A stretch of 40,279 nucleotides of DNA from a virus: positions 1 to 40,279 of IMG/VR virus record IMGVR_UViG_3300028653_000032. One strand, 5' to 3'. A program made the translations under genes and the position numbers. The notes under the pieces were generated by a model. The model saw only the letters and a program-made list of their open reading frames with translations, did no database searches and had not been told where the DNA came from. This document shows, one piece after another, positions 15,932 through 33,355 of this stretch (the first letter of the stretch is position 1; every line of letters starts with the position of its first letter).

Positions 15932-16279
15932 ATGAGTACAAAGAAAGAAGCAAAAGTAAAAAAGGAAACGATATTTGATATCGACCTTTTAAAAATCTCA
16001 ACAGAAGAGTTGAGAATGCTTAGGCATCAGTTTTATGCAAGGCGCACAAACGCTAGCGATGAAACAAGAGTTTTGTGTAATAAAAGAATAGCTGAGTTGA
16101 AAAAGATTCTTCTTTCTCGCAAAGAAAAAGAGCCTAAGAAAGTTACAAAGAAAGTTACAAAGAAAGTTACAAAGAAAGTTACAAAGAAAGTTACAAAGAA
16201 AGTTACAAAGAAAGTCGCTCAAGAGGCAGCACAAGAAACTATTTCTAATGCGCCAGACACAGATAAACCAAACGCATAA
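15932..16279 (+). CDS. Basic protein with KKVT repeats, paralogous in part to the 16523 gene
   Basis: The 115-residue protein has two parts. Residues about 18-66 form a helical motif (EELRMLRHQFYARR … KRIAELKKILLSRK) that matches a segment of the neighbour at 16523 (ETLRMFRHRLYATK … GKIEELRQELIRRK), so the two are related. Residues about 69-95 are six KKVT repeats plus KKV, very like histone-H1-type or HMG-type tails that bind nucleic acid. GGAGG at 15920-15924 serves the ATG. A DNA- or RNA-binding role is inferred from charge only. Confidence 0.75.
   Translation: MSTKKEAKVKKETIFDIDLLKISTEELRMLRHQFYARRTNASDETRVLCNKRIAELKKILLSRKEKEPKKVTKKVTKKVTKKVTKKVTKKVTKKVAQEAAQETISNAPDTDKPNA
16136..16207 (+). 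repeat. Six tandem copies of a 12-base unit (AAGAAAGTTACA)
   Basis: The unit AAGAAAGTTACA is repeated six times without a mismatch and encodes (KKVT)6. Perfect identity at the DNA level suggests recent slippage expansion, so copy number probably varies between relatives. Confidence 0.97.
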
Positions 16280-16522: not shown

Positions 16523-17020
16523 ATGATTGCCCAGGAACAAGTTTTAGAAAGAAGAGGTCTTTACTGCACGAACTGCGGTAATAAAGTTGAATCTGCAAGA
16601 ATGTTTACCGGGCCAGATTTGTTTAATAATCCAAACGAGATAAAACTTCATGAGCTATGTGCTTTCTGTGTAGCAGTATTTAAGAGTCTTATTCCTTCCA
16701 AAAAAACCGAAACAATAATCGAAAATGGAAAACCTATACTAAAAACAAAACAAAGAAAGCCGCGCAACAATCAAGGTACAACGTATTTGCTTGATATTAT
16801 TTTCAAAGAAGAAAAAAGCGAAACCTTGAGAATGTTTCGGCATAGACTCTATGCCACTAAGTCTAACACGGAAAACCCTAAGCTCAAAGAGGCGCTTATG
16901 GGAAAAATTGAGGAATTGCGTCAAGAGCTTATAAGACGCAAAGATTATTTCAAAGGAGGAATAGCGGGCAAGAAATGGCAAGACAAAAAAGAAAAATTAA
17001 AAGGAGAAGATAATGAATAA
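16523..17020 (+). CDS. Zinc-finger protein with LRMFRH helical motif
   Basis: The 165-residue protein has an N-terminal zinc-ribbon-like site (YCTNCGNKVE … HELCAFCVAV; CxxC…CxxC) and a basic stretch (KTKQRKPRNNQG). A C-terminal helical motif (LRMFRHRLYATK … IEELRQELIRRK) is shared with the 15932 gene. GGGAGG at 16511-16516 is the ribosome site. It overlaps queC by eight bases. A regulatory or nucleic-acid-binding role is plausible but unproven. Confidence 0.75.
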   Translation: MIAQEQVLERRGLYCTNCGNKVESARMFTGPDLFNNPNEIKLHELCAFCVAVFKSLIPSKKTETIIENGKPILKTKQRKPRNNQGTTYLLDIIFKEEKSETLRMFRHRLYATKSNTENPKLKEALMGKIEELRQELIRRKDYFKGGIAGKKWQDKKEKLKGEDNE

Positions 17021-17687
17021 AAGAGCATTGGTTTTATTGTCAGGCGGACTTGACTCAACAACGTGTCTATTTTGGGCGAAAGAAAGATTTGATCATGTAA
17101 CAGCTTTGACTATAAACTATGGACAAAAACATGCCATAGAACTTGAGTGTGCGGCAAGATCCGCCTCTGATTATGCAGATGCTGCCATTACACTTAATCT
17201 TGATATTTTAAAACAAATAGGAGATTCGGGGCTTGTTGATTCAAATATAAATGTCAACGATAGACACCGTGGAAATAAGAATCTTCCTGCTTCTTTTGTT
17301 CCAGGGCGTAACATTTTTTTCTTAACAACAGCAGCAGCAGTTGCATACAAAAGAGATATTGATAATATAGTAATTGGTGCCAATCAGGTTGATTATTCAG
17401 GATACCCTGATTGTCGAATTGAATTTTTAAATAGTATGCAGGAAACAATAAACCAAGGCCTGGAAAAACATATACAAATACTAGCACCTCTTCTATTTTT
17501 AAACAAAGTTGAAATTATTAAAGAAGGTGAAAGGTTAGGAAAATTTTCCTACATTATGAACGAAACGCATTCGTGCTATAATGGTTCGCGTTGTAAAATG
17601 GAATTTGGTGGACACGGATGCGGTATTTGTGACTCTTGTCGTATAAGGCAAGAAGCATATAAAGAATACCATAAGGGGATAAAATAA
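17013..17687 (+). CDS. queC: 7-cyano-7-deazaguanine (preQ0) synthase QueC
   Basis: The 224-residue, full-length QueC converts 7-carboxy-7-deazaguanine to preQ0 using ATP and ammonia. Seen: the PP-loop SGGLDSTTC (residues 10-18), INYGQKH, FVPGRN, the substrate motif DYSGYPDCR, and the zinc site with Cys in THSCYNG and HGCGICDSC. It is plain QueC without the amidotransferase fusion (Gat-QueC) some phages use to make archaeosine-like bases. It lies about 5 kb from queD, queE and folE but in the same early transcript direction. Confidence 0.96.
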   Translation: MNKRALVLLSGGLDSTTCLFWAKERFDHVTALTINYGQKHAIELECAARSASDYADAAITLNLDILKQIGDSGLVDSNINVNDRHRGNKNLPASFVPGRNIFFLTTAAAVAYKRDIDNIVIGANQVDYSGYPDCRIEFLNSMQETINQGLEKHIQILAPLLFLNKVEIIKEGERLGKFSYIMNETHSCYNGSRCKMEFGGHGCGICDSCRIRQEAYKEYHKGIK

Positions 17688-18721
17688 TGGCAAAAAGAGA
17701 ATTTACAAATTCAGAATTAAGCTGCTATCAGCAATGTCCTAAAAAGTGGCAGTTTAATTATATTGATAGATTACAGCCAATCAAAACAAAAACAGCTCTA
17801 CAGCTTGGTGATTTGTTTCATCAAGCAATGGCAGATTATTACATGCACAATAGAAGTTCTGCATATTCATTAAATAAGTTTTACGAAAAAATAATCGAAC
17901 TTAAAAAAGACGTTGTTGACGAGTTGCGTCTTGTTGAAATAAATGAAATGTATGAGCTTGGTACCAGCATGCTTTCACGTTATTTTGACTATGCTGCAAT
18001 TAAGGACGATTTTGAAGTAATTGAAATTGAAAAACCTTTCATTGTTCCTATTCTTACCGATAAAAATAAAAAATCAAATAAGTTTATGTATAGGTTTAAA
18101 TGCGATATGCTTATTTTGCGCCGTGGAAAACTTTGGATAAAAGAGTTTAAAACAGCAGTTGCAATAAATACGGATTATCTTTTAAATCTTACACTTGACG
18201 ACCAGGTAAGCCGCTATTGTTTAGGCGTATCAATGGAGCCTTCTTTATTTAAGAAATATGGAAAAGTTGAAGGAGTGCTTTATACAGTAGTAAAAAAATC
18301 AATTCCTTCTATTCCTGAAATCCTTAAAAATGGAGAGCTTTCAAAGAATAAAGCAATAAATACAACGTACGAGATATATTTAAACACAATTAAAAAACAT
18401 GGCCTGAACGAAAGCAATTACACAGAAATACTTGAAATACTTAAACAAAAAGGGAATACTTTTGTTTTTCGTGATGAAGTGTTGCGCACACAGAAAGACT
18501 TACTTGAAACAAAACAGCATTTGTACAATCTTTGTATTACAATAGCAACAAATCCACCTATATGGAAAAGTCCTTCGCACGATTGTTCTTGGAAATGTTC
18601 TTATCGAAATTTGTGTATTGAAGACTCAGAGTCTTTGCGTAAAGCAGAATATACAATAAGGGATGCGTATCATGCGGAATATGCAGAACCTAAAAAGGAG
18701 GAAAAAATTACCGCAAAATAA
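17687..18721 (+). CDS. PD-(D/E)XK nuclease of the RecB/Cas4-like family with Fe-S Cys cluster
   Basis: The 344-residue protein starts by TAATG coupling to queC. The N-terminus has LSCYQQCPKKWQFNYIDRL and GDLFHQAM, the usual opening of PDDEXK_1 nucleases. The catalytic Asp and ExK are in KCDMLILRRGKLWIKEFKT (about 139-157). The C-terminus has DCSWKCSYRNLC, which with the N-terminal Cys would hold a 4Fe-4S cluster as in Cas4/AddB. Beside the Sak4-like ATPase it probably acts as the exonuclease of a phage recombination module. Confidence 0.88.
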   Translation: MAKREFTNSELSCYQQCPKKWQFNYIDRLQPIKTKTALQLGDLFHQAMADYYMHNRSSAYSLNKFYEKIIELKKDVVDELRLVEINEMYELGTSMLSRYFDYAAIKDDFEVIEIEKPFIVPILTDKNKKSNKFMYRFKCDMLILRRGKLWIKEFKTAVAINTDYLLNLTLDDQVSRYCLGVSMEPSLFKKYGKVEGVLYTVVKKSIPSIPEILKNGELSKNKAINTTYEIYLNTIKKHGLNESNYTEILEILKQKGNTFVFRDEVLRTQKDLLETKQHLYNLCITIATNPPIWKSPSHDCSWKCSYRNLCIEDSESLRKAEYTIRDAYHAEYAEPKKEEKITAK

Positions 18722-18735
18722 ACCTGGGAGGTAAA

Positions 18736-19509
18736 ATGAAAATAGTAAACACATCAGAAGAAAAACCATTTATCAAAATGCTGATATATGGTCAAGCAGG
18801 CGTAGGAAAAACAGTATTTGCTTCAACGGCACCGAAACCATTGTTTGTTGTATGCGATACAGGAACTTTATCTATAAAAGATAAAAAAATAGACAAAGTA
18901 AATGTTGAAACATTTGATGATGTAATGGACGTTTATAGCCAGCTAAAGTCTGGAGCGTTTCCTCAGTATCAAACAGTCGTTCTCGACACTCTTGGAAATA
19001 TACAAAAAAAATCAATGGATGCGATACTTGCAAAAAATAGTCATTCTCAGGCAACTATTGCTGACTGGCAGTTAAACATTGAACAGATAAGAAAGTTAGT
19101 TCGTGTGTTTCGCGAACTTCCAATGAATGTAATTATTATCTGTCATGAAATGTTTGTTTCCGACGAATCAACAGGGGAAATAATTCGTATCTCTCCTATG
19201 CTACAAGGAAAGTCTCTTCCAAACGAAGTTAGCGCCTACATGGATATTGTGGGCTATATCGTTGCAAAAGAAAAAGGAAGCGAAGAGGCAAAAAAGGGAG
19301 TTGAAGTTCAACAAAACATGAACAATGTTGAAATACAGAGAATGATTCGCGTTCAACCTAGCGCAAGAATTCCTGTTAAAGACCATTCTGGAAAACTTGG
19401 AACCTGGATAGAGCCAAACTTTGGTTTGATATATCAAAAAGTTTTTGGCGAAACACAAGTAGTAGAAAATAAAAAAGTCGAAATAGAAAGTACAAAAAAG
19501 AAAGGTTAA
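18736..19509 (+). CDS. Sak4-like RecA-fold ATPase (AAA_24), recombination
   Basis: The 257-residue protein has Walker A GQAGVGKT (19-26), DTGTLS after strand 2, Walker B TVVLDTLGNI (about 80), and IICHEMF (about 137) as the sensor strand. This is the AAA_24/Sak4 pattern of phage single-strand annealing ATPases. Its ribosome site, CCTGGGAGG, is the same sequence as that of the tail chaperone gene. It lies between an exonuclease and a DUF669 protein, the usual recombination trio. Confidence 0.87.
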   Translation: MKIVNTSEEKPFIKMLIYGQAGVGKTVFASTAPKPLFVVCDTGTLSIKDKKIDKVNVETFDDVMDVYSQLKSGAFPQYQTVVLDTLGNIQKKSMDAILAKNSHSQATIADWQLNIEQIRKLVRVFRELPMNVIIICHEMFVSDESTGEIIRISPMLQGKSLPNEVSAYMDIVGYIVAKEKGSEEAKKGVEVQQNMNNVEIQRMIRVQPSARIPVKDHSGKLGTWIEPNFGLIYQKVFGETQVVENKKVEIESTKKKG

Positions 19510-19521
19510 ATAGGAGAAAAC

Positions 19522-19965
19522 GTGAAAGCAAACATTGGAGAATTACCTGATTATTCAGACAGCAGTCCTCTTCCGGTTGGGAAGTATCATGTTTCAGTTC
19601 TTACAGCGCATCTTGTTGAATCTGACATGAAAGCACCTTACATAAAAACTGTTTTTGTTGTAAGGGAAGGCCAGCATGAAGGTCGTAAGATTTTTAAAAA
19701 CTTTATCTTTACACAAAAAGCATTACCTTTTATGAAAGGGTTTCTTGTGGCTCTCAATTACGATACAACAGCAGAAGTAAACATTGACCCTAAAGACTGG
19801 ATTGATGAAGAGCTTGCTGTTCGTGTTGTGCATGAAATGGGAACAGGAGAATATGCTGGTAAAATTAAAGTTGAAATTGCTCAATACACAACTTTAAAAG
19901 AAGCAGGATTTACAGTAGCAGGAAAGTTGAACGATATAGATTTCCCAGGCCCTGACGCAAGATAA
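19522..19965 (+). CDS. DUF669-like protein, probable single-strand DNA-binding partner
   Basis: The 147-residue protein starts at GTG 19522 with AGGAG nine bases upstream. The pattern (LPVGKYHVSVLTAHLVES…, VVREGQHEGRKIFKNFIF, FLVALNYD, IDPKDWIDEELAVRVVHE) matches DUF669, found beside Sak4-type ATPases in many phages and thought to bind DNA during recombination or replication. A structured noncoding region follows at once. Confidence 0.78.
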   Translation: MKANIGELPDYSDSSPLPVGKYHVSVLTAHLVESDMKAPYIKTVFVVREGQHEGRKIFKNFIFTQKALPFMKGFLVALNYDTTAEVNIDPKDWIDEELAVRVVHEMGTGEYAGKIKVEIAQYTTLKEAGFTVAGKLNDIDFPGPDAR

Positions 19966-20065
19966 AACAGTTCTTTAATGGCACGGTGGCGTAGTAGCCT
20001 GACAGGTAACTGGCGTAATTTTTAGGCGGGTCCGATTCCCTTAATGCGTGAGTCCTAAAACTGTT
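19966..20065 (+). ncRNA. Candidate structured noncoding RNA, tRNA-like closing geometry
   Basis: AACAGTT (19966-19972) pairs perfectly with AACTGTT (20059-20065), closing about 100 bases. Directly inside the 3' strand, TTAGG (20022-20026) pairs with CCTAA (20054-20058), so the two helices abut as acceptor and T stems do. GGGTCCGATTCCC (20028-20040) forms a T-arm-like loop. TGGCGTA occurs twice (19987 and 20011). No anticodon arm can be drawn, so it is not a normal tRNA. The remaining bases to 20140 hold the ribosome site of the next gene and nothing else I can identify. Confidence 0.5.
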
Positions 20066-20140
20066 ACAATACTAATTGTCCGTGTCTTTAAAGATGTTTA
20101 GAAAAAAAGCAAATAAAAAACAAACTGTAAGGAGCTTAAA

Positions 20141-20476
20141 ATGAGTGACAAACGCTGGAAACAGGTGGAAAGACAGCTTGCAAAGGAGTTCGCGACACAA
20201 CGAACAGCATTAAGCGGTTCAAACTCAAAAATTACACATAGCGACACTCTGCACGATAGTTTATTTTTTGAGGTAAAGTTTCGTAAAAGACACGCAGTCT
20301 TACAGCTATTTGAAGCAACAGAGATTCTTGCAAAAAAAGAGAATAAAATTCCTGTCGTATGTTTAAAACAATCTAAAACACAGGGATTTTTTATTCTATG
20401 CAGACTGGAGCATTTGGCGCAGTTAGGAATAATTAAACGAACCGCAGAAGTTCAAAATAATGAAATAGTAAAATAG
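20141..20476 (+). CDS. Small PD-(D/E)XK endonuclease, Holliday-junction-resolvase-like
   Basis: The 111-residue protein opens KQVERQLAKEFATQRTALSG and has HSDTLHDSLFFEVKFRKRHA, the Asp and ExK of a PD-(D/E)XK core, then IPVVCLKQ. Archaeal-type resolvases and related phage nucleases share this layout. It probably resolves branched phage DNA before packaging. AAGGAG precedes the ATG. Exact specificity is not clear. Confidence 0.78.
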   Translation: MSDKRWKQVERQLAKEFATQRTALSGSNSKITHSDTLHDSLFFEVKFRKRHAVLQLFEATEILAKKENKIPVVCLKQSKTQGFFILCRLEHLAQLGIIKRTAEVQNNEIVK

Positions 20477-20486
20477 GAGCATTAAA

Positions 20487-20837
20487 ATGGAATCTTTTTC
20501 ATTACAAGAAAAACAAGAACTTGAAAAATTAAAAAACCAGGTTAAGTATTGTTTAAAAAACTATCCTGGAACAAGGGATTGCGACAAGCAACTAGTTTGG
20601 ACAGTATGGAAAAAATTTTACAATATTCCTGATGAAATACATTATCTTCAATATTATGGATTGCCAAAAGAAACAAGCATAACACGCTTACGCAGAGCAA
20701 TTCAAAATCATCCGCTTTTTCCTCTTTATTTACCAACAAGAGAAGAAGTGGCTCGCTATCGCAAAATAAACATGATAAAATGGAAAGAATATATGCAATA
20801 CTCTCCAGTTCTTCCAGGCACCAAAGGGAGCAATTAA
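20487..20837 (+). CDS. Conserved phage protein of unknown function
   Basis: The 116-residue helical protein has the pattern LEKLKNQVKYCLKNYPGTRDCDKQL … SITRLRRAIQN … YLPTREEVARYRKINMIKWKEY, common in phage replication regions next to small nucleases, with no known function that I can name. It ends in a TAATG overlap with the replication initiator gene, so the two are translationally coupled. Confidence 0.7.
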   Translation: MESFSLQEKQELEKLKNQVKYCLKNYPGTRDCDKQLVWTVWKKFYNIPDEIHYLQYYGLPKETSITRLRRAIQNHPLFPLYLPTREEVARYRKINMIKWKEYMQYSPVLPGTKGSN

Positions 20838-21568
20838 TGGAAAAGTTTTTCGGTATTACAAATTTTACAAGCTACCAACATTACAAGGAAAGAGATATTA
20901 CAAGTTGGATAAAATTATATTTTAAAATTCTTGATGATTATAAAGTTATTCAACTTGAAGACAATGAAAGATGGATATTTGTGGGCCTTCTTTTGTTAGC
21001 TGGTAAAAACGGCAATAATATACCTGCGGATTATATGTACATAGCGGAACAGATTTGTCACAGAAACAGCAGAAACAGTATAGAAAAAACAATTCAAAAA
21101 CTCATTCAGTTTAACTTGCTTTATGAGAAAAGTCTAGATGTTGTCAAGAGTGTGTCTACTCCTATAAGAGTAGATAAGAGTAGATTAGATAAGAAAGATA
21201 TATATATACTTGTTTTAGAACACTGGAACGCACAGGGCTTAGTTAAGCATATAAAGATAAACGATAGAATAGTAAAAAAAATTGATGCAAGATTAAACGA
21301 CGGATATTCAATTGAAAAAATTAAAGAAGTAATTCAAAATTATTCAACTATTGTAAAAGGAGAACAATATTATTTCAATTACAAATGGACTCTTTGGGAT
21401 TTTCTTCAAAGAGGTTTCGAGAAATTTAAAGATATCGATATTGCGAAAAACAATTTTGCAAAATTTGGTTTAAAAACTCAACTCGCTGCAACAAAAGGAA
21501 AATATAGTGACATTGGAAAAATCTCAAACGATAACACAAAGGACAATAAAGATGATGCAAAGCAATAA
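20837..21568 (+). CDS. Replication initiator / replisome-organiser-like protein
   Basis: ATG 20837 (243 residues) has AAGGGAG upstream and overlaps the previous stop; an upstream in-frame ATG at 20780 would lie inside that gene. The N-terminal half (about 15-110) looks like a winged helix. The C-terminal half has the phage pattern GYSIEKIKEVIQNYSTIVKGEQYYFNYKWTL split around WDFLQRGFEKF, seen in replisome organisers. The linker codes TPIRVDKSRLDKK, and its DNA is an iteron cluster (21155-21193). Origins inside initiator genes are common. The next gene encodes a DnaC-like loader. Confidence 0.78.
   Translation: MEKFFGITNFTSYQHYKERDITSWIKLYFKILDDYKVIQLEDNERWIFVGLLLLAGKNGNNIPADYMYIAEQICHRNSRNSIEKTIQKLIQFNLLYEKSLDVVKSVSTPIRVDKSRLDKKDIYILVLEHWNAQGLVKHIKINDRIVKKIDARLNDGYSIEKIKEVIQNYSTIVKGEQYYFNYKWTLWDFLQRGFEKFKDIDIAKNNFAKFGLKTQLAATKGKYSDIGKISNDNTKDNKDDAKQ
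21155..21193 (+). repeat. Iteron cluster inside the initiator gene, probable origin of replication
   Basis: TCTACTC (21155-21161) and GAGTAGA (21168-21174) form an inverted repeat around CTATAA. Two copies of AGAGTAGAT(A/T) follow at 21167-21176 and 21177-21186. The 25 bases at 21161-21185 are identical to 30980-31004 in the noncoding region before the late promoter. Confidence 0.65.
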
Positions 21569-22226
21569 TAATCCTCACGACCCATATAGGCTCTGTGCTG
21601 TTTGTAAAGAAAGACATCTCTTTGACGGCCAGTTGTGCAATAGGTGTGCAAAAGTGTTTTCTTTGGAAATTGTAATTCCTTTCGGATGCAGAAATTTTAA
21701 TTTTGAGAATTTTAAAATAACACCTGCAAATCAAAACGCTTATCAAAAAGCAAAAGCATTTACTTCTATAAATAAATCTCTTTTTATATTTGGGAAAGAA
21801 ACAGGCTGCGGAAAAACACATCTTCAAATTTCAAGTCTAAGAGAAAGTTTAAAACAATTTAAAAAAAGTAAATATATAAATTATACTGAACTTGTATTAC
21901 TTGAAAGAAAACAATATCAAACAAAAGAAGACGCAGCAGCAGAAACAATAGATGAATGCTTAAACTGTAAAAGATTGTATATAGACGATTTATTTGCTGA
22001 AAGAATAACAGAACAATCATTGCAAGTTTTATATTCGATTTTAGATAATGCAATACTAAACGCAAAACCGCAAATATTTTTGACAAGTAATTTTACACTT
22101 GAGCAAATAGGAGATAAAGCAGATAGAATTGCAAGTAGAATTGTTCGTCTTTGCGGAACAGAAAACATTATTGCAAATATGGAAAACGATTGGAGTTTGA
22201 AAAATAAGGGAGGAAAAATTGGATAA
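21552..22226 (+). CDS. DnaC-like helicase loader with N-terminal zinc finger
   Basis: I chose ATG 21552 (224 residues), which has AAAGGA eight bases upstream; an earlier in-frame ATG lies inside the initiator gene. It has a zinc site (LCAVCKERHL…LCNRCAKVF), Walker A IFGKETGCGKTHL, Walker B RLYIDDLFAE and the sensor FLTSNFT. This is the DnaC/IstB AAA+ pattern. It would load the DnaB-like helicase encoded at 26806. Its end overlaps queD. Confidence 0.88.
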   Translation: MMQSNNNPHDPYRLCAVCKERHLFDGQLCNRCAKVFSLEIVIPFGCRNFNFENFKITPANQNAYQKAKAFTSINKSLFIFGKETGCGKTHLQISSLRESLKQFKKSKYINYTELVLLERKQYQTKEDAAAETIDECLNCKRLYIDDLFAERITEQSLQVLYSILDNAILNAKPQIFLTSNFTLEQIGDKADRIASRIVRLCGTENIIANMENDWSLKNKGGKIG

Positions 22227-22578
22227 AGATATTGTAACATTAAGCGTTAAACATCACTTTGACGCTGCACATTTTTTAAGGGACTACAAGGGAGCTTGTT
22301 CGAATTTGCATGGCCATAGATGGACAGTCAATATTTCAGTTATTGGAAAAGTAGACCCAAAAACTGGCATGCTAATTGATTTTAAAAAAGTAAAAGAAGT
22401 GATTGATGTGCTTGACCATAAATGTCTCAACGAAATTATTCCAGAAAATCCTACGGCAGAAAATATTGCAAAGAGAATATTGTTTGCAGTAAAAGATTTA
22501 ATACCAGGAACTCAGCAGGGTTTTGTTAGAGTAAAACTGTTTGAAACACCTGAAACTTCAGTGGAGGTACAATGTTAA
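22219..22578 (+). CDS. queD: 6-carboxy-5,6,7,8-tetrahydropterin synthase QueD
   Basis: The 119-residue protein starts at TTG 22219 with AGGGAGG five bases upstream. It makes 6-carboxytetrahydropterin from dihydroneopterin triphosphate. Zinc ligands are His18 (FDAAHF) and His31 and His33 (HGH). The catalytic Cys27 is in CSNLHGH, the CxxxHGH form that marks QueD rather than classic PTPS. LDHKCLN and ETPETSVEV supply the catalytic His and Glu. It overlaps genes on both sides. Confidence 0.95.
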   Translation: MDKDIVTLSVKHHFDAAHFLRDYKGACSNLHGHRWTVNISVIGKVDPKTGMLIDFKKVKEVIDVLDHKCLNEIIPENPTAENIAKRILFAVKDLIPGTQQGFVRVKLFETPETSVEVQC

Positions 22579-23183
22579 AAATTCAAGAAATTTTTGTAAG
22601 CGTACAGGGAGAGGGATTAAATATAGGTATTCCAATGACATTTATTCGTTTGCATGGATGCTCTATGGGTTGTAATTTTTGTGATACAAAAGAGACATGG
22701 AAAAGTGATATTTACAAAGAAATGCCAATACATGAAATAATGACCGCAGTTCTTGCACACAAAGTGCGCTGGGCTTGCATAACAGGCGGAGAACCAATGG
22801 AACAAGATATAATGGAGCTTATCTTAGCATTAAAGGCCGCAGGAATAGCTGTAGCTTTAGAAACCAACGGCTCTATTTTTAATCAAGAAATAATAGAAGA
22901 ATGCAATTGGGTAGCAGTAAGTCCAAAAGGAGTAATTCCTGAACAATGGAAAGATTTTAGCTATATCGATGAAATGAAAATTGTTATTCAAAAAGGAAAC
23001 GTGAACGAATTTATTCAAGTCTGGAGCTTTTTAAGAGAAAACGAAGTTTTGCTTTCAACTCCATTATTTTTACAGCCTTGCAATAATGATAAAGATATAG
23101 CTTCTCGTATTTGCGATTTTGTAATTGGAAATCCGTGGTTTCGTTTAGGTTATCAGATGCACAAAAGCTATCAATTAAGATAA
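22572..23183 (+). CDS. queE: 7-carboxy-7-deazaguanine synthase QueE (radical SAM)
   Basis: The 203-residue protein has the radical-SAM site CSMGCNFC (Cys30, 34, 37; CxxxCxxC), VQGEGLNIG at the N-terminus, ITGGEPMEQ and ALETNGS. It rearranges carboxytetrahydropterin to 7-carboxy-7-deazaguanine. TGGAGG is at 22561-22566 within queD, and the ATG lies in the last codons of queD, so translation is coupled. Confidence 0.95.
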   Translation: MLKIQEIFVSVQGEGLNIGIPMTFIRLHGCSMGCNFCDTKETWKSDIYKEMPIHEIMTAVLAHKVRWACITGGEPMEQDIMELILALKAAGIAVALETNGSIFNQEIIEECNWVAVSPKGVIPEQWKDFSYIDEMKIVIQKGNVNEFIQVWSFLRENEVLLSTPLFLQPCNNDKDIASRICDFVIGNPWFRLGYQMHKSYQLR

Positions 23184-23192
23184 GGAGAAATA

Positions 23193-24041
23193 ATGGAAAT
23201 TAAAAATCTTACATTTGAAGATGTTCGTTTGCAGATTATAAAAAAGGGCCTGCTGGATATAGTAAAAAACAAAAAGATATATGGAGTTCCCCGCGGCGGT
23301 TCTTGTGTAGCATTAATGCTGCACAGTGCAACACTTGTAAATATTCCAGAAGAAGCAGATATTATTGTTGATGATATAATTGATTCTGGAAAAACAAGAG
23401 ATAAATATTTTCTTTTATATCCCCATATTCCTTTTTATTCTTTATATGAAAAATCAAGCGCATGGTTACATTTTCCTTGGGAGCATAATGCTGAATGCGA
23501 CATACAAGATACAGTCATAAGACAACTTGAGTTTTTAGGAGAAAATGCCGCGAGAGAAGGCCTTGTAGAAACACCAAGCAGAGTTGTTAGAAGTTGGGAA
23601 AAACTATATGGAGGATATAACGAGAAGCCTGAAGAAATACTTTCAAAAACATTTACACAGCAATATGACGAAGTTGTTCTTTTGAAAGATATTGAATTGT
23701 ATTCGACCTGCGAGCATCATATGCTTCCATTTTTTGGAAAATGTCATATTGCTTATTTGCCTAATGATAAAATTGTAGGTATTTCAAAACTGGCCAGATT
23801 GATGGAATGTTTTGCAAGACGCCTGCAAATACAGGAAAGGCTTGTAAATCAAATTGCCGATGCTTTACAGGAACATCTTAAACCAAAAGGTGTTGCTGTG
23901 ATTGTAGAAGCACAGCATTTCTGTATGACTAGCAGGGGTGTTGAAAAACAGCGCAGCAAAATGGTTACATCTGCCTTAAGAGGTGTATTTCTTGAAAATT
24001 CAACTGCCAGAAAAGAATTACTTGATTTAATAAAATCATAG
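23193..24041 (+). CDS. folE: Phosphoribosyltransferase-like domain fused to GTP cyclohydrolase I (FolE)
   Basis: The 282-residue protein has two domains. Residues about 1-100 look like a compact purine phosphoribosyltransferase: IYGVPRGGSC (pyrophosphate loop), IIVDDIIDSGKTRD (PRPP loop, about 57-70) and LHFPWE, as in Gpt-type enzymes. Residues about 101-282 are GTP cyclohydrolase I with LVETPSRV, STCEHHMLPF and AQHFCMTSRG (zinc Cys, His, Cys) and QRSKMVTSA. FolE makes dihydroneopterin triphosphate, the QueD substrate. The first domain may feed guanine nucleotide to FolE or act on a deazapurine; this is inference. Confidence 0.9.
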   Translation: MEIKNLTFEDVRLQIIKKGLLDIVKNKKIYGVPRGGSCVALMLHSATLVNIPEEADIIVDDIIDSGKTRDKYFLLYPHIPFYSLYEKSSAWLHFPWEHNAECDIQDTVIRQLEFLGENAAREGLVETPSRVVRSWEKLYGGYNEKPEEILSKTFTQQYDEVVLLKDIELYSTCEHHMLPFFGKCHIAYLPNDKIVGISKLARLMECFARRLQIQERLVNQIADALQEHLKPKGVAVIVEAQHFCMTSRGVEKQRSKMVTSALRGVFLENSTARKELLDLIKS

Positions 24042-24050
24042 GAGATAAAA

Positions 24051-24365
24051 ATGAAAGTAATAGCAATTGATATTGATGGAATACTTACAGTTAAAGATGA
24101 AATATCAGCAAAAGAGTACGATAAAATGACAACACTTGATTTAGAAAAAAAGTACAGGCAATGTGTTCCAAATAAAGAAGCCATAAAGAACTGTAATAAA
24201 TTTTATCAGCATAACACTGTATTTCTTTATACTTGTCGTGATTATAGATTTTTTGATATTACTGTTCAATGGTTAAATGAGAACAATGTAGCATACCATT
24301 CTTTAATAATGAATAAACCTTATTATGATATAATTTTTGATGATAAGGCGGTTAATGTTCTATGA
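24051..24365 (+). CDS. Small HAD-like phosphatase
   Basis: The 104-residue protein has HAD motif I at IDIDGILTV (Asp7, Asp9), FLYTCRDYRF in the motif II region, and DIIFDDKAVNVL as motif IV. There is no cap domain, so it resembles T4-PNK-type phosphatase or nucleotidase folds. It lies between folE and the dpdA-like gene and overlaps the latter (ATGA), suggesting work on a nucleotide or DNA end tied to the modification pathway. Substrate unknown. Confidence 0.75.
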   Translation: MKVIAIDIDGILTVKDEISAKEYDKMTTLDLEKKYRQCVPNKEAIKNCNKFYQHNTVFLYTCRDYRFFDITVQWLNENNVAYHSLIMNKPYYDIIFDDKAVNVL

Positions 24366-25216
24366 AAATAAAAGTTTTTTTTGTAAGCGGTGCAGCAAGA
24401 CAATTATTTGGAACGCTTGATTATAATATCAGAAAAATACTTTGTTCGTATTGGTATTATAAAACAGCCCCGGTAAAGAAAATGATTTTTGCAGTTAAGG
24501 AAAAAATGAAGAATGATAAAGAGTTTGAGCTGTTTATAGACTCTGGAGCATTTTCGGCATTTACAAAAGGAATCAAAATAAGTGTTGATGGATATTGTAA
24601 ATATATTCAAGAAATTAATCCAACGCAATATGCGGCCCTGGATGTTATTGGCGACCCTGAAGCATCTGAAAAAAATACTTTAATAATGGAAGACAAGTAT
24701 GGTTTAAAACCTATTCCTGCTTATCATTTATGCGAAGACTATAAATATTTGCATCGAATGATAAAGAAATATGACTACATAGCTTTTGGAGGAATGGTTG
24801 GTGCTTCAAAAGAAAAGCTTGTTTCTTGGCTTGATAATGCTTGGCATATTGTTTTAAAAGAAAAACCACAGTTAAAAGTACATGGATTTGGAATGACTAA
24901 CCTTGAAATACTTAAAATGTATCCATGGTATTCTGTTGATAGTTCGTCTATTACTTCCTCTGTAAGATATGGAAATATTGCATTTATCTCTGAAAACGGT
25001 AATATAAAAAAACAACGTACATCAAAATTTGTGTATGAGTACGGCTTAAATAACGATCAGTCTATTTTTTCTGATAATAATAAAAAACAAGTGGTATGTC
25101 TTGTCCAGGCAGCAAATGTTTTTATGAAACAAATAGAAACGTTAGAGGAGGAACGCAAAAAAATAAATTACAATAGTATGGGAGGAAAATTAAGCCTTCC
25201 TGGGTTTGAAATTTGA
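24362..25216 (+). CDS. dpdA: DpdA-like DNA transglycosylase (phage TGT-family)
   Basis: The 284-residue protein has the signature of phage DpdA, a relative of tRNA-guanine transglycosylase: FIDSGAFSAFTKG, YAALDVIGDPEAS, PIPAYHLCED, YIAFGGMVG, VHGFGMTN and YSVDSSSITSSVRYG. Such enzymes swap guanine in DNA for preQ0 or a related 7-deazaguanine. With FolE, QueD, QueE and QueC in the same genome the donor pathway is complete. No QueF-like reductase or amidotransferase was recognised, so dPreQ0 is the simplest predicted base. ATGA overlap couples it to the HAD gene. Confidence 0.87.
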   Translation: MKIKVFFVSGAARQLFGTLDYNIRKILCSYWYYKTAPVKKMIFAVKEKMKNDKEFELFIDSGAFSAFTKGIKISVDGYCKYIQEINPTQYAALDVIGDPEASEKNTLIMEDKYGLKPIPAYHLCEDYKYLHRMIKKYDYIAFGGMVGASKEKLVSWLDNAWHIVLKEKPQLKVHGFGMTNLEILKMYPWYSVDSSSITSSVRYGNIAFISENGNIKKQRTSKFVYEYGLNNDQSIFSDNNKKQVVCLVQAANVFMKQIETLEEERKKINYNSMGGKLSLPGFEI

Positions 25217-25999: not shown

Positions 26000-26154
26000 T
26001 ATATTATTGTGCAAAGAAAAAATCAAGAATACATAAAGCAAAAGTATTTCAATATTGCTTATTAAAATCCTGCCCCTATTTGACTAAGAGATATAAGATT
26101 AGAAATAGCAATAGTGAAAAAGTAGTAAATATAAATATAGGAGATAATAAATGA
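25996..26154 (+). CDS. 52-residue basic protein with Cys pairs
   Basis: ATG 25996 overlaps the preceding TGA, and its own TGA overlaps the next ATG at 26151. The product starts MIYYCAKKKSRIHKAK, with further Cys at YCLLKSCPY and a basic middle. The clean overlaps at both ends support a real gene. The function is unknown. Confidence 0.6.
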   Translation: MIYYCAKKKSRIHKAKVFQYCLLKSCPYLTKRYKIRNSNSEKVVNINIGDNK

Positions 26155-26552
26155 ATGGAATGAAATGTCTTTATTGTGGTTCAGATGTAGTATTAGCAGA
26201 TTCAAAAGTTATTTACGGCAAGCATTTCGGAAAAGTTTACATGTGTTCAAAGTATCCAAAGTGTGATTCTTTTGTAGGAGCACACACAGGAACAGATAAG
26301 CCGTTAGGGACTTTGGCAAATGCAGAGCTAAGAGAACTACGCAAAATATGCCATTCTTTGTTTGATGGTTGGTGGAAAGCTAATAAGAAAACAAGGAAAG
26401 ATGCTTATGCTATCCTGAGACACACCTTCAATATTCCTGAACAGAAATGTCATATAGCAATGTTTGATGTTAAACAATGCAAAAAATTAATTTCTTTATT
26501 TAACGATAGGCATATTCAGACAATAGGTTCTTTAAACGAGGAAAAGAAATGA
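26151..26552 (+). CDS. DUF3268-type zinc-finger protein
   Basis: The 133-residue protein has the pattern of DUF3268: MKCLYCGSDVVLADSK, IYGKHFGKVYMCSKYPKCD (zinc ribbon CxxC…CxxxxxC), VGAHTGTDKPLGTLAN, ELRELRKICHSLFDGWW, and CHIAMFD near the end. This family is common in phages, and its function is not known to me. GGAG lies just upstream, and its stop overlaps the lipoprotein start. Confidence 0.85.
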   Translation: MNGMKCLYCGSDVVLADSKVIYGKHFGKVYMCSKYPKCDSFVGAHTGTDKPLGTLANAELRELRKICHSLFDGWWKANKKTRKDAYAILRHTFNIPEQKCHIAMFDVKQCKKLISLFNDRHIQTIGSLNEEKK

Positions 26553-27812: not shown

Positions 27813-28393
<581 letters not shown>

Positions 28394-28397
<4 letters not shown>

Positions 28398-31912: not shown

Positions 31913-33355
31913 ATGAACTGGAAGAAAATAGCGGAAATAGCGAAGGTAAATCTAGCACGCAGACATCTTCTTGATTTCATTTTGCAGACCCACTTTAATT
32001 TTAAAGCTGGGTGGTTTCATAAAGTTCTTTGTGATGAATTAGAGCAGTTCTATAAAAACGTTATGGAAGGCAAAGACCCACATCTAATGATATGGGCGCC
32101 TCCTAGACACGGTAAAACAGAAATCATCACAAGGCGTTTTGCAGCCTGGCTCTTTGGAAAAGATCCGCATTTACAAATCATCTCTTGTTCTTATTCGGCA
32201 GACTTATCTGCAAGGAATAACCGCGATGCTCAACGTATTATAGAAGACGATGTTTACAGGAAAATATTTCCTAAAACAAAATTAAAGTCTGGAAAGAAAG
32301 ACGAAGAGAGCGCAGTAAAGAACACAGAGATATTTGAAATAGTGCATCACAGAGGAGCTTATAGAGCAGCAGGTGTTGACGGCGGTATTACTGGAATGGG
32401 TTTTCATATAGGAATCATCGACGACCCTTACAAGAACGCAGAAGAAGCAAATAGCGAAACAATACGCTCAAAGATTCTTGAATGGTATAAGACAACCTTC
32501 TACACTCGCAAAGAACCACAGTCCGGAGTGATTGTTATAATGACTCGTTGGCATCCAGACGATCTTTGTTCAAGGCTACTCGAAGAAGAACCAGAAAAAT
32601 GGAAAGTGTTAAAGTTTGAAGCAATAGCTGAAAAAGACAGTGTATACAGAAAAGCAGGAGAGGCTTTAGATTCTTTAAGATATCCTCTAGATAAATTGCA
32701 GAGTATATTAAAGACTTTAGGTTCGCGGCTCTTTGAAGCGTTGTTTCAACAGCATCCAATTGAAACAGGTGGAAACATTATAAAAGGTGCATGGTTTAAA
32801 ACATACACGGTTTTACCTGAATTAGATTATAGATTCATAACAGCAGATACAGCACAGAAAACAAAAGAGAAGGATGACTTTTCTGTATTTGTTTGTTGGG
32901 GAGTATCTGGAGGAAAGCTTTATTTGCTTGATATGATTAGAGGCAAATGGGAAGCTCCAGATCTTAAAAAAAGAGCTGTTGCTTTTTGGAATAAGCATAA
33001 AACATATTCTGTTTCAGTTGGTGTTCTTCGAAAAATGTATGTTGAAGATAAATCAAGTGGAACAGGACTAATTCAAGAAATCAAACTAGATGCAGATATT
33101 CCAATAGAAGCAATACAAAGAGGAAAGGATAAGTATACAAGATGTTTAGATGTTTTGGGAACAATAGAAGCAGGATATGTTTACTTACCAGCAGAAGAAG
33201 TTTTTATAAGTGATTTTTTAACAGAGTGTGAAGCGTTTACAGCAGATGATTCTCATAAGCATGACGATATAGTTGACAATCTTTTTGATGCAATAGATAA
33301 AGGACTTCCTAAAAAAGAAGTTGACTGGAATGCGGTTGCGGAGGCTATGCAGTGA
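31913..33355 (+). CDS. terL: Terminase large subunit
   Basis: The 480-residue protein has the packaging ATPase Walker A WAPPRHGKTEI (61-71), Walker B FHIGIIDDPY (about 163-172) and MTRWHPDDL. The C-terminal RNase-H-like nuclease has FITADTAQKTKEKDDF, YVEDKSSGTGL and KHDDIVDNLFDAI. It cuts and pumps DNA into the prohead. Headful-type packaging would fit a circularly permuted genome but was not shown. The start overlaps no gene, and AGGAT lies upstream. Confidence 0.95.
   Translation: MNWKKIAEIAKVNLARRHLLDFILQTHFNFKAGWFHKVLCDELEQFYKNVMEGKDPHLMIWAPPRHGKTEIITRRFAAWLFGKDPHLQIISCSYSADLSARNNRDAQRIIEDDVYRKIFPKTKLKSGKKDEESAVKNTEIFEIVHHRGAYRAAGVDGGITGMGFHIGIIDDPYKNAEEANSETIRSKILEWYKTTFYTRKEPQSGVIVIMTRWHPDDLCSRLLEEEPEKWKVLKFEAIAEKDSVYRKAGEALDSLRYPLDKLQSILKTLGSRLFEALFQQHPIETGGNIIKGAWFKTYTVLPELDYRFITADTAQKTKEKDDFSVFVCWGVSGGKLYLLDMIRGKWEAPDLKKRAVAFWNKHKTYSVSVGVLRKMYVEDKSSGTGLIQEIKLDADIPIEAIQRGKDKYTRCLDVLGTIEAGYVYLPAEEVFISDFLTECEAFTADDSHKHDDIVDNLFDAIDKGLPKKEVDWNAVAEAMQ

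Follow-up and report, generated by a model that had tools for sequence, protein, structure and literature searches.

A compact phosphoribosyltransferase-like domain fused to FolE in a viral preQ0 DNA-modification cluster and its possible part in guanine recycling

Phages that encode the transglycosylase DpdA together with the full pathway for 7-cyano-7-deazaguanine (preQ0), and neither QueF nor Gat-QueC, make up group 2 of Hutinet et al. 2019 (PMC6884629). The two group 2 phages measured, CAjan and Rosebush, hold 2'-deoxy-preQ0 (dPreQ0) almost alone, at about 32% and 28% of G, respectively, and in CAjan without dpdA no modification rises above the detection limit (PMC6884629). Here, a cluster of this known type is described from the virus record IMGVR_UViG_3300028653_000032 of IMG/VR, a linear record of 40,279 bases that was analyzed in its entirety and is referred to below as the window. 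What sets the cluster apart is its FolE (GTP cyclohydrolase I), which is fused to a phosphoribosyltransferase (PRT) domain. The overall picture put forward, as a tentative one, is that phages have fused a miniature purine-salvage enzyme to FolE, which would close a loop from guanine through GMP and GTP to preQ0; that many viral DpdA clusters carry this fusion, which their annotation calls simply GTP cyclohydrolase; and that the fusion has been passed to bacteria with small genomes, there perhaps serving another pterin pathway with a changed pyrophosphate (PPi) loop.

The FolE open reading frame (ORF) of the window (23193-24041, + strand) encodes 282 residues, of which the GTP cyclohydrolase I family PF01227 (E 1.2e-73) spans only residues 105-280. 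This FolE domain (23502..24041) passes the family cut-off of TIGR00063 (235.1 bits versus 181.6), carries the CEHH and HxC motifs located by script, and aligns as a model with the GTP cyclohydrolase I (GCH1) structures of T. thermophilus and human at Z 25.5. The initial annotation had read the protein as a plain FolE, overlooking an N-terminal domain at about residues 1-103 (23193..23501, + strand) that resembles xanthine-guanine phosphoribosyltransferase (XGPRT) by profile, AlphaFold2 model, and fold match. Within it lie PRGG at residues 33-36, DDIIDSGKT at 60-68, K87, W91, and FPWE at 94-97, with a shortened loop. A profile of nine such domains matches XGPRT chains of the PDB over nearly the full length (E 1.9e-9). 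The annotation is missing because the Pfam PRT model scores under its cut-off, reaching E 0.15 on the window and 0.0013 for the best of the nine domains. In the AlphaFold2 model of the fusion (mean predicted local distance difference test score, pLDDT, 95.3), 103 residues of the PRT part align with E. coli XGPRT 4jls (Z 11.2), and 1a95 scores nearly as high (Z 11.1), the root-mean-square deviation being high in these comparisons (6-8 angstrom). The domain thus shares with Gpt of E. coli and Y. pestis its profile, its fold, the PPi loop, the motif for phosphoribosyl pyrophosphate (PRPP), and the aligned lysine and tryptophan of the base site, and differs from it in being compact, in being fused to FolE, and in lacking the full-length flexible catalytic loop of XGPRT.

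Conservation was assessed in 105 distinct viral fusions drawn from 125 ORFs. D60, D61, G66, T68, and G36 are retained in all 105, D64 and W91 in 103, R34 in 100, and K87 in 98. That the domain might be a decayed remnant was considered and rejected for the viral set, where 103-105 of the 105 sequences retain the PRPP motif. Between the PPi and PRPP motifs, 98/105 have a shortened loop of 20-33 residues and one has a loop of 42; the script gave no length for the other six. A compact XGPRT-like protein of 128 residues is encoded by a gene of its own in a Parcubacteria metagenome-assembled genome (MAG; L176:1613-1999), showing that the short form can also exist unfused. Another compact stand-alone PRT gene overlaps dpdA in a viral locus and is not fused to FolE (L246:2271-2627), while two further loci (L100 and L138) have an XGPRT with a normal-length loop as a separate gene beside FolE.

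The fusion recurs in many viruses, and all locus sets described here include near-copies. When viral contigs were scanned with the PRT pattern and the best 80 of at least 287 relatives were taken (those most similar to the fused domain), 79 proved to be PRT-FolE fusions, the 80th being ended by the contig end. Since this selection favors the fused form, the 79/80 overstates how exclusively the domain occurs in fusions. DpdA lies in the fetched stretch of 71 of these 80 loci; for the other nine, the whole records (4.3-29 kb, completeness unknown) show no DpdA either, although the viruses themselves may have it. Selection by DpdA gives a different balance: among 80 viral loci, 37 carry the fusion, 2 a PRT gene adjoining FolE, 39 a FolE with no PRT detected, and 2 no FolE in the stretch. 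A third scan, seeded with a PRT-free FolE (n = 80), returned 30 fusions (26 with DpdA), 3 separate PRT genes (2 with DpdA), and 47 loci with no PRT (33 with DpdA). In tblastn against 50,697 phage records, the PRT domain matches 25. The named carriers include the Pseudomonas phages PaMx25, NP1, and their kin, Vibrio phage VpKK5, and Sphingomonas phage MMDA13, and in those whose surrounding region was examined (PaMx25, VpKK5, MMDA13, and Vibrio 1.207.B), the fusion sits within a DpdA cluster. In contrast, E. coli phages such as SeppeHuegi match the window protein over the FolE part only. Wherever the deposited annotation was examined, the fusion is called GTP cyclohydrolase; that of PaMx25 divides a single open PRT-FolE ORF (L008:6862-7792) into a hypothetical protein and folE. 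No description of a PRT fused to a phage FolE was found in the literature searched, which was mostly without subscription papers. The domain is an overlooked annotation for many phage FolE proteins, and its role is testable with one purified protein. As a separate observation, the FolE half of one fusion (L108:7233-8975) has an insertion of about 277 residues at its CEHH zinc site, apparently an intein with an HNH-type motif.

Each exchange by DpdA frees one guanine and uses one preQ0, and each preQ0 costs one GTP. Every DNA site modified by base exchange thus leaves a free guanine as by-product, and what becomes of it is not discussed in the literature passages on such modification that were consulted. 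The PRT domain may recycle this guanine, along with guanine from other sources, through GMP to GTP; this is a tentative proposal that falls somewhat short of being probable, and it draws on the recurrence of the fusion in viral DpdA clusters and on the conserved active-site residues. The scheme would run as follows: FolE, QueD, QueE, and QueC of the phage would make preQ0 starting from GTP; DpdA would put preQ0 in place of guanine in the phage DNA, which would then contain dPreQ0 and be protected from host restriction; the XGPRT-like domain on FolE would, most likely, convert free guanine and PRPP to GMP; and host kinases would lift GMP to GTP, the substrate of FolE. The guanine expelled by DpdA would thereby pay for the next preQ0, and a salvage domain on FolE, if real, would show how phages balance the guanine they free. 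It is improbable that the domain acts on the 7-deazaguanine base itself to yield a preQ0 nucleotide. The gene neighborhood is indeed that of preQ0 synthesis, and preQ0 presents the same 2-amino-6-oxo face as guanine, but purine phosphoribosyltransferases contact N7, which preQ0 does not have. Moreover, a nucleotide route is not needed, because insertion depends on DpdA, as CAjan without dpdA illustrates (PMC6884629).

Several results weigh against guanine recycling as the function of the domain. About half of the DpdA-selected clusters have no PRT, so the domain is not needed for modification. Among the FolE-selected loci, the tie between PRT and DpdA is not significant (DpdA in 28/33 with PRT versus 33/47 without; Fisher p 0.18), and a significant association among viral FolEs was accordingly rejected. 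The loop between RGG and DD, which we take to be 48 residues in E. coli Gpt, is shorter in the fused domains, so PRT activity is not assured. Finally, the fusion is not bound to DpdA, because a bacterial clade carries it with no DpdA match. Of 100 genomes around one MAG, 12 encode the PRT domain within ORFs of about 285 residues, and one more (G107) gives a weak match. These 12 genomes are about 1 Mb each, and none of them gives a DpdA match (0/12), while two control records do. A strictly DpdA-only role for the fusion was rejected when this clade was found.

In the bacterial clade (L175:7154-9556 and L179-L189), the fusion adjoins two QueD-like genes in the seven loci first examined. An SDR gene follows it downstream in six of the seven; L184 ends too early to tell. 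The operon looks like one for biopterin synthesis. All 12 bacterial fusions have K-N-G in the PPi loop, versus R-G-G in the viruses, and keep the PRPP motif save for one unread residue. After thinning, two bacterial rows remained in a quick FolE tree, and they nest, with modest support, inside a group of viral fusions (SH-aLRT 95 for that group and 91 for the inner node); 51 of the 96 inner branches are open. Given this nesting, transfer of the fusion from phage to bacteria is plausible from the sequences. The tree requires 16 changes among the fused, separate, and alone states, which fits either one origin followed by losses or gain on several occasions.

The main rival to guanine recycling is that the PRT domain acts as a regulator, binding PRPP or a purine and tuning FolE, and does not work as a salvage enzyme. 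This is rather unlikely, and it draws on two features already described: the shortened flexible loop in 98/105 viral fusions, and the presence of the fused domain in bacteria with no DpdA match, where K-N-G replaces R-G-G in 12/12. However, the viral fusions retain the whole PRPP motif, with the PPi-loop arginine kept in 100/105, and in L100 and L138, XGPRT genes of normal length occupy the same place.

That the phage synthesizes preQ0 and inserts it into its own DNA, the reading on which the recycling scheme depends, is well supported and probably correct. The DpdA-type transglycosylase is encoded at 24362..25216 on the + strand and matches phrog_887 (E 9.1e-58). The motifs D60 in DSGAF and D193 in DSSS were located by script, and D60, H174, and D193 are invariant across 54 aligned phage DpdA proteins. 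The AlphaFold2 model, with a pLDDT of 82.5 and weak stretches at residues 223-236 and 269-284, has, together with this 54-row alignment, the barrel and two conserved aspartates of tRNA-guanine transglycosylases (TGTs). Its top match among solved structures is the DNA preQ0 insertase DpdA 7ui4 (Z 18.6, 248 residues), with TGTs tied behind it (Z 18.1-18.5). The comparison with DpdA and TGT profiles on which the initial annotation had staked its assignment of this protein is thus passed. The CxCxxC zinc motif is a feature of TGTs and of bacterial DpdA; it is absent from the window DpdA and from all 140 phage DpdA ORFs examined. The window DpdA matches 228 of the 50,697 phage records by tblastn, and the closest named relatives among the matches listed are DpdA proteins of the 9g type, at about 33-42% identity. 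Enterobacteria phage 9g itself resembles the window in having preQ0 genes and a DpdA (40.8% identity over 65% of the query); it differs in its plain FolE and in its long QueC gene, in which only the C-terminal part matches QueC, and its product is dG+ (PMC6884629).

Two scores speak against this assignment of the pathway: the bacterial DpdA equivalog NF041059 gives 24.7 bits against a cut-off of 200, and the best NCBIfam equivalog for QueE gives 97.8 bits, also under a cut-off of 200. The PHROG and GenBank family names, which read queuine tRNA-ribosyltransferase, could moreover suggest that the cluster serves queuosine in host tRNA and not phage DNA. This is very improbable: the top-ranked solved match of DpdA is a DNA preQ0 insertase, although TGTs tie with it in Z; no tRNA genes were found in the 40,279-base window; DNA insertion has been demonstrated for homologs; and 9g dpdA is implied, in a passage of the same source, not to complement an E. 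coli tgt mutant (PMC6884629).

The other genes of preQ0 synthesis lie on the + strand as well. QueC, preQ0 synthase (17013..17687), has 224 residues and no fused amidotransferase; it matches PF06508 at E 1.2e-71 and the NCBIfam equivalog TIGR00364 at 219.8 bits versus a cut-off of 150.3, and shows SGGLDS and a four-cysteine cluster. QueD, 6-carboxytetrahydropterin synthase (22219..22578), starts with TTG behind a GGGAGG site, matches PF01242 at E 4.9e-31 and TIGR03367 at 95.4 bits versus 89.25, and contains CxxxHGH. QueE (22572..23183) matches phrog_2076 at E 8.8e-33 and contains CxxxCxxC and GGEP. These motifs were located by script, and the catalytic roles of the motif residues of QueC, QueD, QueE, FolE, and DpdA are those of their families. 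Profiles and motifs thus agree with the initial annotation that the four preQ0 enzymes and a DpdA-like transglycosylase are all present with their catalytic residues. All five genes are intact and open at the coordinates that it had given within 17013-25216, and most starts in the cluster have a GGAG-like ribosome site. Two corrections apply to that annotation, the overlooked fusion and the position of QueC, which is not contiguous with the rest. Seven replication and recombination ORFs between 17687 and 22219 (about 4.5 kb) separate it from the run QueD-QueE-FolE-HAD-DpdA.

With DpdA, FolE, QueD, QueE, and QueC, the window has the gene content of group 2. Of the enzymes whose absence also defines that group, QueF and the class II amidotransferase family GATase_6 are absent by profile; no ArcS-specific profile search was made. 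QueF (PF14489) matches the window only inside FolE (23727-23903), with no separate QueF gene. QueF structures rank low for this ORF (Z 13-14 versus Z 25 for GCH1), and the match, lying within the FolE domain, is therefore taken as shared T-fold ancestry; a QueF activity of the FolE ORF was rejected. GATase_6 (PF13522) and the preQ0 transporter family Vut_1 (PF02592) have no match in the window, while controls matched. The earlier remark that no QueF-like or amidotransferase gene was recognized is upheld by the PF14489 and PF13522 searches. CAjan and Rosebush likewise have DpdA, FolE, QueD, QueE, and QueC with no amidotransferase (PMC6884629), and the window differs from the description of group 2 in its fused FolE and its distant QueC. 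In PaMx25, QueC carries a GATase_6 domain, another difference from the window.

Since the gene content is that of group 2, the measured members of which contain dPreQ0 (PMC6884629), the base predicted by analogy in the virion is dPreQ0, in line with the initial annotation, which had named it as the simplest product. Protection of this virion DNA from restriction would follow by the same analogy, as the abstract of that paper describes for such modification (PMC6884629). A final base other than preQ0 is unlikely, though less so than a role in host tRNA: host QueF or an unrecognized phage ORF could convert preQ0, either ahead of its insertion or afterwards, to preQ1, ADG, or a different derivative. 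Such bases have precedents in the dPreQ1 of Dp-1, the traces of dADG in Rosebush, and the dADG of 7-11, where the enzyme for the step is not known (PMC6884629), and several small ORFs near DpdA have no family above cut-off. Against a derivative stand the near exclusivity of dPreQ0 in the group 2 phages measured (PMC6884629) and the lack of both QueF and GATase_6 genes in the window, and dPreQ0 remains the product predicted here.

Other genes accompany the cluster. Between FolE and DpdA lies a small ORF for a HAD-like phosphatase (24051..24365, + strand; phrog_1238 at 5.9e-16 and phrog_415 at 6.4e-10), which carries DxDG, TCR, and DD by script and has a single weak counterpart among the loci compared (L114); the start of the DpdA gene overlaps it by 4 bases. 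A DUF3268 zinc-finger protein is encoded at 26151..26552 on the + strand (PF11672, 2.8e-42) and may be a companion; homologs occur in Shewanella phage S0112 (L013), where the gene lies between those for FolE and DpdA, and in L172, where it comes after dpdA. In other loci, a small protein with an HRHxFHV-like motif occurs in the preQ0 clusters of three of the four loci found first (L002:7236-7610, L004:9440-9781, and L005:10855-11217). Two of these also contain, within the preQ0/DpdA cluster, a glycosyltransferase-like gene named by eye (L004:8454-9425 and L005:11221-12249), perhaps for further decoration of the base.

The record encodes a tailed-phage structural module, including TerL, portal, head protease, major head protein, and tape measure, in addition to the replication genes. 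No near relatives of the phage were found by megablast of 17013-25216 or by single-protein scans with DpdA or TerL. TerL (31913-33355) shares 52% identity with its counterpart in Aggregatibacter phage S1249, and its match is not to the Queuovirinae, which carry many of the nearest DpdA genes; the resemblance to S1249 does not name the host. Elsewhere in the window, the ORF at 27813-28397 has a sub-threshold match with the Imm5-like immunity protein family (E 0.00013), and KVTK is repeated in tandem within the C-terminal half of the ORF at 15932-16279.

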